A stretch of 53,823 bases of DNA from Chitinophagales bacterium (GTDB lineage Bacteria; Bacteroidota; Bacteroidia; Chitinophagales; JADIYW01): assembly GCA_017984135.1 (NCBI GenBank), contig JAGNZZ010000011.1, positions 1 through 53,823 on the forward strand, written 5' to 3'. The position numbers and the translations under genes were made by a program. This document shows, in pieces, positions 13,384 to 49,796 of the stretch. Position 1 is the first letter of the stretch; every line of letters starts with the position of its first letter. The notes under the pieces are model-generated. The model ran no database searches, was not told the DNA's origin, and saw nothing but the letters and a program-made list of their open reading frames with translations.

Positions 13384-13412
13384 ATAGCAATCTACGGATT
13401 GCTATTTTTTTT
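13384..13412 (+). terminator. Intrinsic terminator after the M43 protease
   Basis: A perfect 9-bp stem ATAGCAATC (13384-13392)/GATTGCTAT (13397-13405) with loop TACG is followed by a T-run to 13412. It sits 26 bases after the stop codon. Confidence 0.88.
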
Positions 13413-17318: not shown

Positions 17319-18578
17319 TTAATTTTTCAATGGTGCTATGTCTTCTAATGATTTTCGGATGATTTGAACGGCATCTTCGATTTGATTTTTAGTTATCACC
17401 AAAGGTGGAGCAAAGCGAATAATATTGCCATGTGTTGGTTTGGCTAATAATCCATTATCACGCATTTTTAAACATAAATTCCAGGCAATTTCTCCATCCG
17501 TATTCCAATTATGTTCTGTTTCGTGGCTATCTTTAATTATCATTGCATTGAGTAACCCTTTACCACGTACCGATTCAATGATTGGATGATTTAAAGAACG
17601 CAGTCCATTTCTAAATAGTTCTCCCATTTCATGTGCATTATCTGCTAACTTCTCATCTATCACAACTTGCAAACTTGCTGTTGCTACGGCGCATGCTAAC
17701 GGATTTCCTCCAAAGGTAGAACCGTGTTCACCAGGTTTTATACATAACATAATCTCATCGCTGCACAACACTGCGCTTACCGGCATTGTTCCGCCGCTTA
17801 GTGCCTTACCAAGAATTAAAATATCAGGCTGAATGTTGGCATAATCGCACGCTAATAGTTTGCCGGTGCGCGCAATTCCTGTTTGTACTTCATCGGCAAT
17901 AAGCAATACTTTATTTTTTGTACAGACTGCACGAACCTGTTTTAAATAATCATCGTCCGGCACTACTACACCTGCTTCGCCTTGTATAGGTTCTACCATA
18001 AATGCCGCTACATTTTTATCTTGCAAACTTTCCTCTAAAGCAGTAATATCGTTGTATGGAATTTTTACAATTCCTGGAACAAAAGGACCAAAACCATGAT
18101 ACGATGATGGATCGGTGGAAGAAGAAATGGCCGCAATCGATCTTCCCCAAAAATTATGTTCGCATACTACAATTACAGCTTTGTCATTTTCAATGCCTTT
18201 GACATCATATCCCCAACGTCGTGCTAATTTAAAAGCCGTTTCACAAGCTTCCACGCCTGTGTTCATGGGCAATACTTTATCATACCCAAATAACTTAGTA
18301 ATATACGCTGCAAAAACACCTAATAAATCATTGTGAAACGCACGTGAGGTAAGCGTCAAAACTTCAGCTTGCGCTTGCATTGCTTTCACTATTTTAGGAT
18401 GACAATGTCCTTGGTTTACTGCAGAATATGCCGACAAAAAATCAAGATATTGCTTACCTTCTACATCCCAAACGTGCACTCCTTTTCCTTTTGACAAAAC
18501 AACTGGTAATGGATGGTAATTATGTGCACCATATTTTTCTTCTAAAGCTATTAATTGTTGTGATGATAAAGAGCTCAT
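17319..18578 (-). CDS. rocD: Ornithine--oxo-acid transaminase
   Basis: 419 residues from the ATG at 18578. A TTG seven codons upstream at 18599 lies inside the promoter -7 box, so it cannot be the start if that promoter is used. The enzyme transfers the delta-amino group of ornithine to 2-oxoglutarate with PLP, giving glutamate semialdehyde/P5C. Landmarks are [11 protein letters not shown] at the N-terminus, [23 protein letters not shown], the PLP lysine in [15 protein letters not shown], and the phosphate-binding [11 protein letters not shown]. It connects to proline dehydrogenase at 6507-7694 through P5C. A perfect palindrome lies directly upstream of its promoter. Confidence 0.95.
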
Positions 18579-18596: not shown

Positions 18597-18604
18597 CAAA
18601 TATA
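18597..18604 (-). promoter_or_regulatory. -7 promoter box of rocD
   Basis: On the minus strand this reads TATATTTG, an exact TAnnTTTG match, 18 bases before the ATG at 18578. Transcription would start about four to six bases downstream of it, leaving a short leader. This excludes the upstream in-frame TTG as the start codon. Confidence 0.55.
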
Positions 18605-18625
18605 CTATTTCATTCAGATTAAAGA

Positions 18626-18643
18626 TAGTTGTCTTGACAACTA
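18626..18643. promoter_or_regulatory. Perfect 18-bp palindrome, candidate rocD operator
   Basis: TAGTTGTC (18626-18633), TT, and GACAACTA (18636-18643) form a perfect 8-2-8 inverted repeat. Its near edge is 21 bases upstream of the rocD -7 box, which puts it over the -33 region. A dimeric regulator bound here could control rocD, and possibly the divergent M61 gene about 155 bases away. The regulator family is not identifiable from the site alone. Confidence 0.5.
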
Positions 18644-18799: not shown

Positions 18800-20536
18800 A
18801 TGAATATAAAATACGTTTTATCATTTCCAAATCCGGATACTCATTATTTAGAAGTGGAGATGCACTTAAGTGATGTAGAACAAGCCTCTTTAAATTTAAA
18901 AATGGCCGTTTGGACACCAGGAAGTTATTTAATTCGTGAGTTCCAAAAAAACATTGATAATGTGGTGGTATTTTATCCAAATAATGAAAATAAACGCTTA
19001 GAAAAAATTAATAAAAACACTTGGACGCTAGATACAAAACAAGAAAAAGAACTCGTTGTAAAATATAAAATTTATTGTTTTGAATATTCAGTGCGTACTA
19101 ATTTGGTTGATGATAGTCATGCGCTTTTAAATGGAGCAGGAACATTTATTTATGTAGAAGGATTTGAGAAAGATGAAATAGAAATTAATATCAATCCTTT
19201 TGAAAAATGGGATAAAATCTCCACCTCATTAGCCATAAAAAATGGGAATAAATGGCAACGAATTGCCGAAAATTTAGATGATTTAATTGATTCTCCTATT
19301 GAAATTGGAAATCATGAAACGTATTTTTTTGAAGCAGCAAATGTACCACATGAATTAGCAATATATGGAACAAGCAATTGCAATATCCTAAAATTAATGG
19401 AAGATTTAATAAAGATTATTGAAGTTGAAACAGCCATATTTGGTTCACATCCTTGTAAAAACTATGTGTTTATAATACATAATACAGACACGAGCTATGG
19501 CGGTTTAGAGCACAAGAATTCATCCGTCAATCATATTCCTCGTTGGAGTTATGACGACACTAATTATCAAAGAGCAATTAGTTTGTTAGCTCATGAATAT
19601 TTTCATTTATGGAATGTGAAACGCATTAAACCTGCTTCATTAATTCCATACAATTATGAAAAAGAAAATTATACTGATTTACTTTGGTTTTTTGAAGGCG
19701 TTACCAGTTTTTATGATGATTATGTATGTTATAAAGCCGGAGTTACTTCAAAAGAAAAATACATTGAAATAGTGGAAAATAATTTGAATGAAGTATTGAA
19801 TACTGCCGGCAAAGACACACAAACATTAGCTGAAGCCAGTTATGATACATGGCTAAAATATTATAGAAAAAATGAGAACAGTTCAAATGCTCAAATTAAT
19901 TACTATACGCATGGAGCTGTGGTTACTATGCTTTTTAATTTTTATATCATTTATGATTCAAATGGAGAAAAAAAATTTGAAGATGTATTGAAGAAAATGT
20001 ACGATGCATATCTTTCCAATCCAAATAAAGGTATTACCAAAGAGGATATAATACAAATAATTACATCCTTTACAAATAGTAATTTTGATGAATTTTATAC
20101 CTTATTTATAGAATCGATAACATCATTTAAAGGCATTGATCCGTTTTTTAAAATGGTGGGCATTGAGTTAACCAATCAACTTATTTCTGGAGGTAAATAT
20201 TTAGGAATTACTACAAAATTGGAAAATGGAAGGTTATTGATTACTCAATTAGATAAAAATTATGGCGCCTATAAAGATGGTTTAAATGTACATGATGAAA
20301 TTATAGCTATTGATGGATTTAGAGTACAAAATGATTTCAATAAATTATTTGCACATAAAAAAATAAACGATACCATTATCGTTACAATTTCTAGGAACGG
20401 AATACTTCAAAATAAATCAATCGTATTAACGGAAGATAAACGTTATAAAATTAAATTCCAATGGCTTCATTCGCTCAGTGAACAACAACAAAATGCTCAA
20501 ATTGCTTGGTTAGGGAAACATACTACAATCGTATAA
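18800..20536 (+). CDS. M61 glycyl-aminopeptidase family protein with PDZ domain
   Basis: 578 residues. An N-terminal beta domain (about 1-170) is followed by a gluzincin catalytic domain with HEYFHLWNVKRIKP (H265, E266, H269) and the glutamate of WFFEGVTSFYDD (E299), then a PDZ domain (about 470-560) with the carboxylate-binding-type strand and a DGLNVHDEIIAIDG motif. This order is characteristic of M61 peptidases, which remove N-terminal glycine or other residues. No signal peptide is visible at the chosen ATG, so cytoplasmic location is likely, although many relatives are exported. An AT-only hairpin overlaps the stop codon. Confidence 0.93.
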   Translation: MNIKYVLSFPNPDTHYLEVEMHLSDVEQASLNLKMAVWTPGSYLIREFQKNIDNVVVFYPNNENKRLEKINKNTWTLDTKQEKELVVKYKIYCFEYSVRTNLVDDSHALLNGAGTFIYVEGFEKDEIEININPFEKWDKISTSLAIKNGNKWQRIAENLDDLIDSPIEIGNHETYFFEAANVPHELAIYGTSNCNILKLMEDLIKIIEVETAIFGSHPCKNYVFIIHNTDTSYGGLEHKNSSVNHIPRWSYDDTNYQRAISLLAHEYFHLWNVKRIKPASLIPYNYEKENYTDLLWFFEGVTSFYDDYVCYKAGVTSKEKYIEIVENNLNEVLNTAGKDTQTLAEASYDTWLKYYRKNENSSNAQINYYTHGAVVTMLFNFYIIYDSNGEKKFEDVLKKMYDAYLSNPNKGITKEDIIQIITSFTNSNFDEFYTLFIESITSFKGIDPFFKMVGIELTNQLISGGKYLGITTKLENGRLLITQLDKNYGAYKDGLNVHDEIIAIDGFRVQNDFNKLFAHKKINDTIIVTISRNGILQNKSIVLTEDKRYKIKFQWLHSLSEQQQNAQIAWLGKHTTIV

Positions 20537-33809: not shown

Positions 33810-35249
33810 TTAATCCCAAGAGCCTTTTGCCACAGAAGTATCTTTATACACTTCCATTCCTTTTACTTCTTCTAATTGTTTATCTCTATATTGATTACCT
33901 GATATTTTCAAGATAGATTTAACTTCTGCAATAGCAATTGCTGGGAAGAATCTACAGAATAATAAGAATAATGTCATAAATAAACCGATAGAACCAATAA
34001 AAATTCCCATTTCAACCCAAGATGGTGAATAATACAACCAACTTGAAGGTAAATAATCTCTATGTAATGAAATTACGATAATCACAAATCGCTCGAACCA
34101 CATGCCAATATTAATTAAAATTGACATAAAGAATGTAACAGCAATATTTCTTCTTAATTTTTTGAACCAAAATACTTGTGGCGAAACTAAGTTACAGAAC
34201 ATCATTGACCAATAAGCCCACCAATAAGGCCCAGAAGCTCTATTGGCAAATGCATACGATTCATACATATTACCAGAATACCATGCTACGAATAACTCGG
34301 TTAAGTAGGCTATACCAACCATGGTGCCTGTTAATAACATTACTTTATTCATGGATTCCATGTGTGCCAGCGTAATATAATCCTGTAAGTTCATGATTTG
34401 TCTGGCTATTATCATTAATGTCAATACCATTGCAAAACCTGAGAAAATAGCACCTGCTACGAAATAAGGAGGCATGATAGTGGTATGCCAACCTGGCACT
34501 ACTGAAGTAGCAAAGTCAAAGGATACAATGGTATGAACAGATAATACTAACGGAGTTGATAACCCAGCTAAGATTAATGATAATGATTCCCAACGTTCCC
34601 AATGTTTCGCAGATCCTATCCAACCAAAACTTAAGAAGTTATAAAATTTCCATCTTCCTGGAGTTTTAGATTGGTCACGCATCGTTCCAAAGTCTGGAAC
34701 TAAACCTGTGTACCAAAATAATAAGGATACGGTGAAATAGGTAGAAATTGCAAATACGTCCCATAATAATGGAGAAGTAAAGTTCACCCAAAGTGGACCA
34801 CGTGTATTTGGATAAGGGAAAATAAAGAATGCATCCCAAACACGACCCATGTGAAATATTGGAAATTGACCAGCGCAAATTACTGCAAATATGGTCATCG
34901 CTTCTGCGGCTCTGTTTACACCTGTACGCCATTTTTGACGGAACAACAATAAGATAGCTGAGATTAATGTACCAGCATGACCGATACCAATCCACCACAC
35001 GAAGTTGGTGATATCCCATGCCCAACCTACTGTTTTATTGGCACCCCAAGTACCAATACCGAACATTACTTCCCATGCGATACAAAATACAAATAAACCT
35101 GCGAAAACAGCAGAAACAGCTGTCCAAAATGCCCATTTTGGTTGTATTTTACCTGTTGTTGGAGCTACGATATCTCTCGTAATATCCTTGTAGGTCTTAT
35201 TACCGTTTATTAACGGTTCGCGTAGTGGTGATTCAAAATGACTTGCCAT
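33810..35249 (-). CDS. actC: Alternative complex III quinone-binding subunit ActC
   Basis: 479 residues, NrfD/PsrC-like, about ten helices. Typical stretches are PKWAFWTAVSAVFAGLF, WWIGIGHAGTLISAIL (with a histidine near the quinone site), HTIVSFDFATSVVPGWH and the long GPYWWAYWSMMFCN segment. ActC anchors the complex and carries the quinol-oxidation site. It is 43 bases downstream of actB. Confidence 0.95.
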   Translation of the reverse strand: MASHFESPLREPLINGNKTYKDITRDIVAPTTGKIQPKWAFWTAVSAVFAGLFVFCIAWEVMFGIGTWGANKTVGWAWDITNFVWWIGIGHAGTLISAILLLFRQKWRTGVNRAAEAMTIFAVICAGQFPIFHMGRVWDAFFIFPYPNTRGPLWVNFTSPLLWDVFAISTYFTVSLLFWYTGLVPDFGTMRDQSKTPGRWKFYNFLSFGWIGSAKHWERWESLSLILAGLSTPLVLSVHTIVSFDFATSVVPGWHTTIMPPYFVAGAIFSGFAMVLTLMIIARQIMNLQDYITLAHMESMNKVMLLTGTMVGIAYLTELFVAWYSGNMYESYAFANRASGPYWWAYWSMMFCNLVSPQVFWFKKLRRNIAVTFFMSILINIGMWFERFVIIVISLHRDYLPSSWLYYSPSWVEMGIFIGSIGLFMTLFLLFCRFFPAIAIAEVKSILKISGNQYRDKQLEEVKGMEVYKDTSVAKGSWD

Positions 35250-49765: not shown

Positions 49766-49796
49766 AAAAAAAAACCGAAAGCAATTGCTTTCGGTT
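49766..49796 (-). terminator. Intrinsic terminator after groEL
   Basis: AACCGAAAGC (49773-49782), AATT and GCTTTCGGTT (49787-49796) form a perfect stem. Read on the minus strand it is followed by a run of nine T residues. It lies just past the groEL stop at 49820. Confidence 0.92.

Follow-up and report, generated by a model that had tools for sequence, protein, structure and literature searches.

A palindrome in the promoter of rocD

We analysed a stretch of 53,823 nucleotides from a Chitinophagales bacterium (contig JAGNZZ010000011.1), called the window below, in which the gene for ornithine aminotransferase, rocD, and a divergent neighbour share one intergenic region. The features relevant here are the following, the first of them predicted from its sequence, its conservation in the genus and the linkage of its motif to a MarR gene.

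18626..18643, no strand assigned: predicted operator, a perfect 18-bp palindrome, TAGTTGTC-TT-GACAACTA
18597..18604, minus strand: -7 box of the rocD promoter, TATATTTG, matching the TAnnTTTG consensus
17319..18578, minus strand: rocD, ornithine aminotransferase (TIGR01885, 674 bits, cut-off 378)
18800..20536, plus strand: divergent gene, a putative M61 (peptidase-like) gene according to the sequence-only reading

The sequence-only reading had described a perfect 8-2-8 inverted repeat, 21 bases from an exact box, in DNA shared by the two genes and with no regulator gene adjacent, and all of this holds. Exactly 21 nt (18605-18625) separate the palindrome from the box downstream of it, the distance to the rocD ATG, which begins at 18578, is 47 nt, the ATG of the divergent gene lies at 18800, and no regulator gene stood out near rocD when the listed open reading frames of at least 80 aa between 14000 and 24000 were read. 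The box at 18597-18604 has the TAnnTTTG form of Bacteroidota sigma-A promoters. In Flavobacterium psychrophilum this box lies at -12 to -5 (PMC9723704), and by that measure the palindrome would be centred near -42.5 and reach from about -51 to -34, so that its earlier placement over the -33 region was roughly right: it sits at the edge of where such an element would be.

The window contains eight perfect 8-2-8 palindromes, whereas 30 order-1 Markov sequences average 2.5, and symmetry alone is therefore weak evidence; those with at least three G or C per arm number three, against 0.2 expected. Other perfect palindromes of the window with G/C in their arms are found at 35124-35141 (CCAAAATG-CC-CATTTTGG), 49776-49793 (CGAAAGCA-AT-TGCTTTCG) and 13385-13404 (TAGCAATC-TACG-GATTGCTA).

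Conservation and recurrence within the genus

Conservation upstream of rocD orthologs had been named as a check on this site, and within the genus the outcome is positive. Our genus sample comprised eight genomes, and rocD upstream DNA was read in seven of them (G000, which is the window's own, G001 and G003-G007), G002 being left out because its best match was another aminotransferase, 37% identical. In six of these seven promoters the rocD ATG is preceded, at 45-48 nt, by an 18-bp site, which reads TAGTTGTCAAGACAACTA in G000, TTGTTGTTATAACAACTT in G001, TAGTTGTTATAACAACTA in G004, TAGTTGCTATAACAACTA in both G005 and G006, and TACTTGTCATAACAACAA in G007; the sole exception is G003, whose rocD promoter is without the site. 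Mean pairwise identity among the six sites is 83%, compared with 36%, 42% and 42% in three flanks, all computed ungapped and in register of the site, and the window's own copy, which has an unusual centre, agrees with the consensus at 15 of 18 positions. An exact TAnnTTTG box accompanies the site in five of the six orthologs, at spacings of 21, 21, 21, 20 and 21 nt, while in G006 TATCTTCG stands 17 nt from it (by eye). A like divergent gene faces rocD in all seven genomes (by eye), with a 103-aa frame between the two in G005; since this neighbour is also present in the site-less G003, the site goes with the rocD promoter and not with the divergent gene.

No near-exact second copy of the palindrome was found in the genome when its arms were searched with any 2-base centre and up to two mismatches. 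Unlike the exact 18-mer, a degenerate form, TAGTTGYTATARCAACTA, does recur in the genus, in front of gdh-hmgA and of pruA (P5C dehydrogenase) and in the stretch that separates icd from a divergent gene. The suggested check for the 18-mer before arginine/proline genes was thus positive in part: a degenerate site precedes pruA, whose step is common to arginine and proline breakdown, whereas the exact sequence occurs nowhere else and the other recurrences concern gdh-hmgA and the region between icd and its neighbour. Taken together with the conservation before rocD, this recurrence before linked genes lends support to the earlier suggestion that the palindrome may be an operator or activator site.

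With the pattern TASTTGYTRTARCAASTA, drawn up when the first sites were already known, and at most one mismatch, 20 forward matches were obtained in the eight genus genomes against one for the reversed control, the window's own rocD site deviating too far to be counted among them. Five lie before gdh, four before pruA, three before rocD and two between icd and the divergent gene; the remainder are inside coding frames (four) or elsewhere (two, at G004:C155 and, beside a masked stretch, at G005:C51). The stricter form TAGTTG-N6-CAACTA gave 17 exact matches in the genus and two in the control. A site precedes gdh in all seven genus genomes read, the G003 gdh being left out, while upstream DNA of pruA and icd was covered only in genomes with a pattern match. 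The weakest of the target assignments is icd, which is separated from its site by 186-194 nt, compared with about 10 nt on the side of the divergent frame.

Several matches were set aside. That at C12:163760 in the window's own genome lies in the opening codons of what reads as a lemA-like frame and for this reason was taken as chance and rejected as an operator, and matches within secA-like, glycosyltransferase-like, recN-like and repeat-like frames (by eye) were also taken as chance. Separately, the match TAGTTGTTATAACAAGCA on G004:C155 (L144 3066-3083) stands 44 nt before a cysteine-desulfurase-like gene (by eye), in this one genome only.

A MarR gene in the tyrosine operon and a linked motif across the order

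The gdh and hmgA genes begin an operon with the order gdh-hmgA-hppD-marR-fahA-phhA-flavin reductase-like. Its marR gene (G000:C50:14665-15078, minus strand) is on a different contig from rocD and encodes a protein of 138 aa that matches PF01047 over residues 31-88 (40.3 bits, cut-off 24.6) and, among solved structures, 60 distinct sequences at E <= 0.001, many of them named as MarR family. In this genome 4-hydroxyphenylpyruvate dioxygenase, fumarylacetoacetase and phenylalanine 4-monooxygenase score above their NCBIfam cut-offs, as do L-glutamate gamma-semialdehyde dehydrogenase and NADP isocitrate dehydrogenase. The hmgA product is over the Pfam cut-off (PF20510, 37.9 bits) and far below the NCBIfam one, and "gdh" denotes a member of the Glu/Leu/Phe/Val dehydrogenase family (PF00208) that does not reach the cut-off set for glutamate dehydrogenase models in NCBIfam.

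The MarR is present in six of the eight genus genomes and adjoins hppD in each. None of the MarR, hppD and the site was found in G003 (85% complete). G004 (95% complete) yielded no MarR and no hppD, yet strong sites precede both rocD and gdh; the contig with gdh-hmgA ends 227 bases after hmgA, so the missing MarR likely reflects an assembly gap.

Of 248 genomes from the order, 46 contain relatives of this MarR (E <= 1e-25), at 49 places, 20 of which were fetched, all from outside the genus and consisting mostly of the best matches with some from other families. Twelve of these loci have hppD in the cluster or nearby (about 3 kb away in L195), and the eight without hppD in the stretch were left out of the count that follows. 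Using a matrix built only from 19 genus sites, which themselves score 15.4-28.6, eight of the 12 hppD-linked loci hold a site whose score is matched by no more than 1% of 1725 control windows. This site precedes gdh in L188 and L189, hppD in L190, L191, L195, L198 and L204 (mostly between marR and hppD), and marR in L207. Weaker sites (1.3-3.6% of controls) precede marR in L193, L205 and L206, and the matrix scan returned no convincing site at L194. Because the control windows include coding DNA, the same 33 windows were also scanned with 300 column-permuted matrices, which gave a mean of 0.37 sites and a maximum of three, against the eight observed. Among the eight loci without hppD, a strong site precedes marR in L200, a weaker one (1.7% of controls) is present in L201, and the same scan found none in the other six.

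A gene in or beside the hppD cluster with the motif upstream, as one would look for in a local regulator of tyrosine degradation, is therefore found across lineages, and several families of the order (f1, f18 and f20) show the tyrosine link. The hppD-linked MarRs do not group as one clade on the MarR tree, where the label changes five times, compared with 11.7 on average when shuffled. Their presumed recognition-helix stretch is mostly KDAPT-x-T/S-RII, with a few departures, and the same stretch is found in MarR relatives located away from hppD, so similar palindromes may be recognised by related proteins. A profile search of contigs with the MarR alignment returned seven loci, five at 71-82% identity and two at 45-46%; the latter (L156 and L157) are not beside hppD as read and showed no motif-like intergenic palindrome. 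The site itself, its recurrence, its conservation and its linkage to the marR gene can all be seen directly in these genomes.

The numbers of matches outside the genus tell against a genome-wide signal. Over 29 genomes, namely G003 and 28 from outside the genus, the pattern search yielded 14 forward matches, the control 13, and exact TAGTTG-N6-CAACTA in 91 non-genus genomes gave about 37 against 69 (hand count), with no enrichment in either case. The 14 places, in 12 genomes, comprise, by reading, five before gdh, hppD, hmgA or pruA-like genes, one before a glyoxalase-like gene with an aldehyde dehydrogenase, three before other genes, four in coding frames and one at an incomplete locus (G239). 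Outside the genus, therefore, the argument is one of location next to marR and hppD rather than of match numbers. Moreover, none of 20 rocD promoters read there carries the site (best matrix score 5.0), 16 of them coming from genomes with a MarR relative, and the rocD link is seen in this genus only.

Several individual loci deserve mention in their own right. In G237 a second site (L244 1501-1518) lies 7 nt before the ATG of a separate hmgA-like gene, on a different contig from marR-hppD, as if the regulon had outlasted a split of the operon. In G008, from another genus of the family (72% complete, with no MarR relative over the cut-off), sites at L033 1501-1518 and L237 1501-1518 precede a glyoxalase-like/aldehyde dehydrogenase pair and a P5C-dehydrogenase-like gene (by eye). 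In two genera of f20, the sites TAGTTGCATAAGCAACTA / TAGTTGTTTATGCAACTA (L059 1501-1518 in G056 and L060 1501-1518 in G093) lie 25-32 nt before an electron-transfer-flavoprotein-like gene (by eye), where a related regulator may control acyl-CoA oxidation. TAGTTG-N6-CAACTA also stands directly before or after other, distant-type MarR-like genes (L074 1501-1518 and L056 1501-1518), so the half-site may be common to several MarR groups of the order. Finally, motif matches were seen in one genome each 25 nt before a prephenate-dehydratase-like gene (L235 1501-1518, G167) and 24 nt before a prolyl-tRNA-synthetase-like gene (L247 1501-1518, G233), both assigned by eye.

Proposed mode of action and regulon

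Based on its conservation and on the motif it shares with the tyrosine operon, we predict that the rocD palindrome is an operator of the hppD-linked MarR-family regulator of tyrosine catabolism, with a probability of roughly 0.8, a figure that covers any operator role for this MarR, including the activation considered below. As to binding, effector and sign of action, we infer that a MarR dimer encoded in trans would bind the palindrome, each TAGTTG half-site being read by one winged helix. At its own operon the protein would most likely repress, since most genomes with a clear box have the site within the promoter or downstream of it: the site is 6-7 nt upstream of a TAnnTTTA box in G001, G004 and G007 and downstream of a TAnnTTT box in G005, G006 and G010, while no clear box was seen near the gdh site in G000, G002 and G198. 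Such a placement would suit repression, and the position of marR within the operon leads us to propose autoregulation. We could speculate that release comes from a pathway intermediate, either 4-hydroxyphenylpyruvate or homogentisate; this guess follows from HmgR of Pseudomonas putida, an IclR-family repressor of the homogentisate pathway for which homogentisate is the anti-repressor (PMC5343134).

At rocD the sign is harder to call. The site keeps a near-constant position upstream of the -7 box, with a spacing of 20-21 nt in five of six rocD promoters and of 22-25 nt in all four pruA promoters read, which suits occlusion at the upstream edge or activation alike. If this MarR does bind there, we lean slightly towards repression, in which RNA polymerase would be occluded. 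The variant in which the same MarR, on the same operator, activates rocD and pruA while repressing its own operon is a serious, if less probable, option. Class II activators centred near -42.5 touch RNA polymerase, and no TTG lies 17-23 nt upstream of the G000 rocD box (by eye). The missing TTG is, however, not diagnostic, because a TTG at that distance accompanies only three of the 12 TAnnTTTG boxes located near starts in the window, and a repressor overlapping the promoter edge could hold similar positions. A MarR protein can act in both ways, as HpaR, the repressor of homoprotocatechuate degradation, represses one operon and activates another (PMC7180172). It is tempting to go further and to speculate on a dual switch at the glutamate/2-oxoglutarate node, in which the MarR would repress its own operon, gdh included, and activate rocD and pruA from near -42, rocD having been captured into an old tyrosine regulon on the line to the genus by the gain of one 18-bp palindrome; we consider this version doubtful.

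It is improbable that a regulator of another family, such as an Lrp/AsnC or Crp/Fnr-type activator, reads the site and that the link to the MarR arose by coincidence. Amino-acid genes are frequent targets of Lrp/AsnC proteins, and Crp/Fnr proteins would fit a centre near -42. However, the AsnC domain (PF01037) was not found in G004 (95% complete) or G006 (100% complete), both of which bear the site, so that AsnC was rejected as the binder, and eight of the 12 outside loci that combine this MarR with hppD have the motif upstream of gdh, hppD or marR. Less probable still is that the reader is a MarR paralog rather than the protein of the tyrosine operon: G000 does have three MarR genes, the operon copy and the paralogs on C34 and C43, and the strict motif adjoins other MarR-like genes (L074 and L056), but the recognition-helix stretch differs in both paralogs, no strong site was found in the paralog loci read (top matrix score 9.0), and the C34 type is present in the site-less G003. 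That the palindrome is chance, or a hairpin or terminator of no regulatory role, we consider very improbable, because, although perfect palindromes are not rare in the window and no enrichment of the motif is seen beyond the genus, six rocD promoters conserve the site, it recurs in the genus before linked genes, and a 2-nt loop between two divergent genes is ill-suited to a terminator.

With the hppD-linked MarR as the predicted reader, rocD, pruA and possibly icd would belong in this genus to the same regulon as the tyrosine operon. The rocD enzyme converts ornithine to glutamate semialdehyde, pruA takes this to glutamate, and gdh would lead on to 2-oxoglutarate. If gdh is what it seems, the three genes make one map from ornithine to 2-oxoglutarate, and a shared regulon would place this whole route under control together with phenylalanine and tyrosine breakdown.

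TyrR, which is not a MarR-family protein, resembles this arrangement in that one regulator joins several amino-acid degradation pathways. In Shewanellaceae the TyrR regulon is predicted to link the degradation of tyrosine, phenylalanine, proline and other amino acids (PMC5343134). A close likeness, by description, is HmgS, a MarR-family regulator of hmgAB predicted in 2016 for several Alteromonadales and Pseudoalteromonadales from three genomes, with six sites and 3.0 genes per genome (PMC5343134); both are predicted local MarR-family regulators of tyrosine degradation through the homogentisate pathway. Unlike that case, ours lies in Bacteroidota, its operon also holds gdh, phhA and fahA, and there are extra targets in rocD, pruA and possibly icd. 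HpaR is likewise a MarR repressor in an aromatic catabolic cluster; it serves another pathway and its palindrome is TTAA-XXXX-TTAA (PMC7180172), and our protein was rejected as an HpaR equivalog (TIGR02337, 44.2 bits, cut-off 121). HmgR differs in protein family, and the account of it in the available part of PMC5343134 does not mention ornithine or glutamate genes.

Local MarR control of tyrosine degradation has thus already been predicted in gammaproteobacteria, and the target set here is wider and shifting. Our search of the open-licence literature, with subscription journals mostly outside it, found no account of this regulon or its like in Bacteroidota.

To our knowledge, few transcription-factor regulons have been worked out in Bacteroidota, and here a lone palindrome has led to a candidate regulator, its motif and several target promoters. 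The natural variants of the site, together with rocD promoters that naturally lack it, offer a ready panel for EMSA. From these comparisons we conclude that rocD was probably added to the MarR tyrosine regulon within this genus. It appears that one regulator is connected to the breakdown of several amino acids, and its regulon seems to have been extended, within a single genus, by a gene from another pathway.
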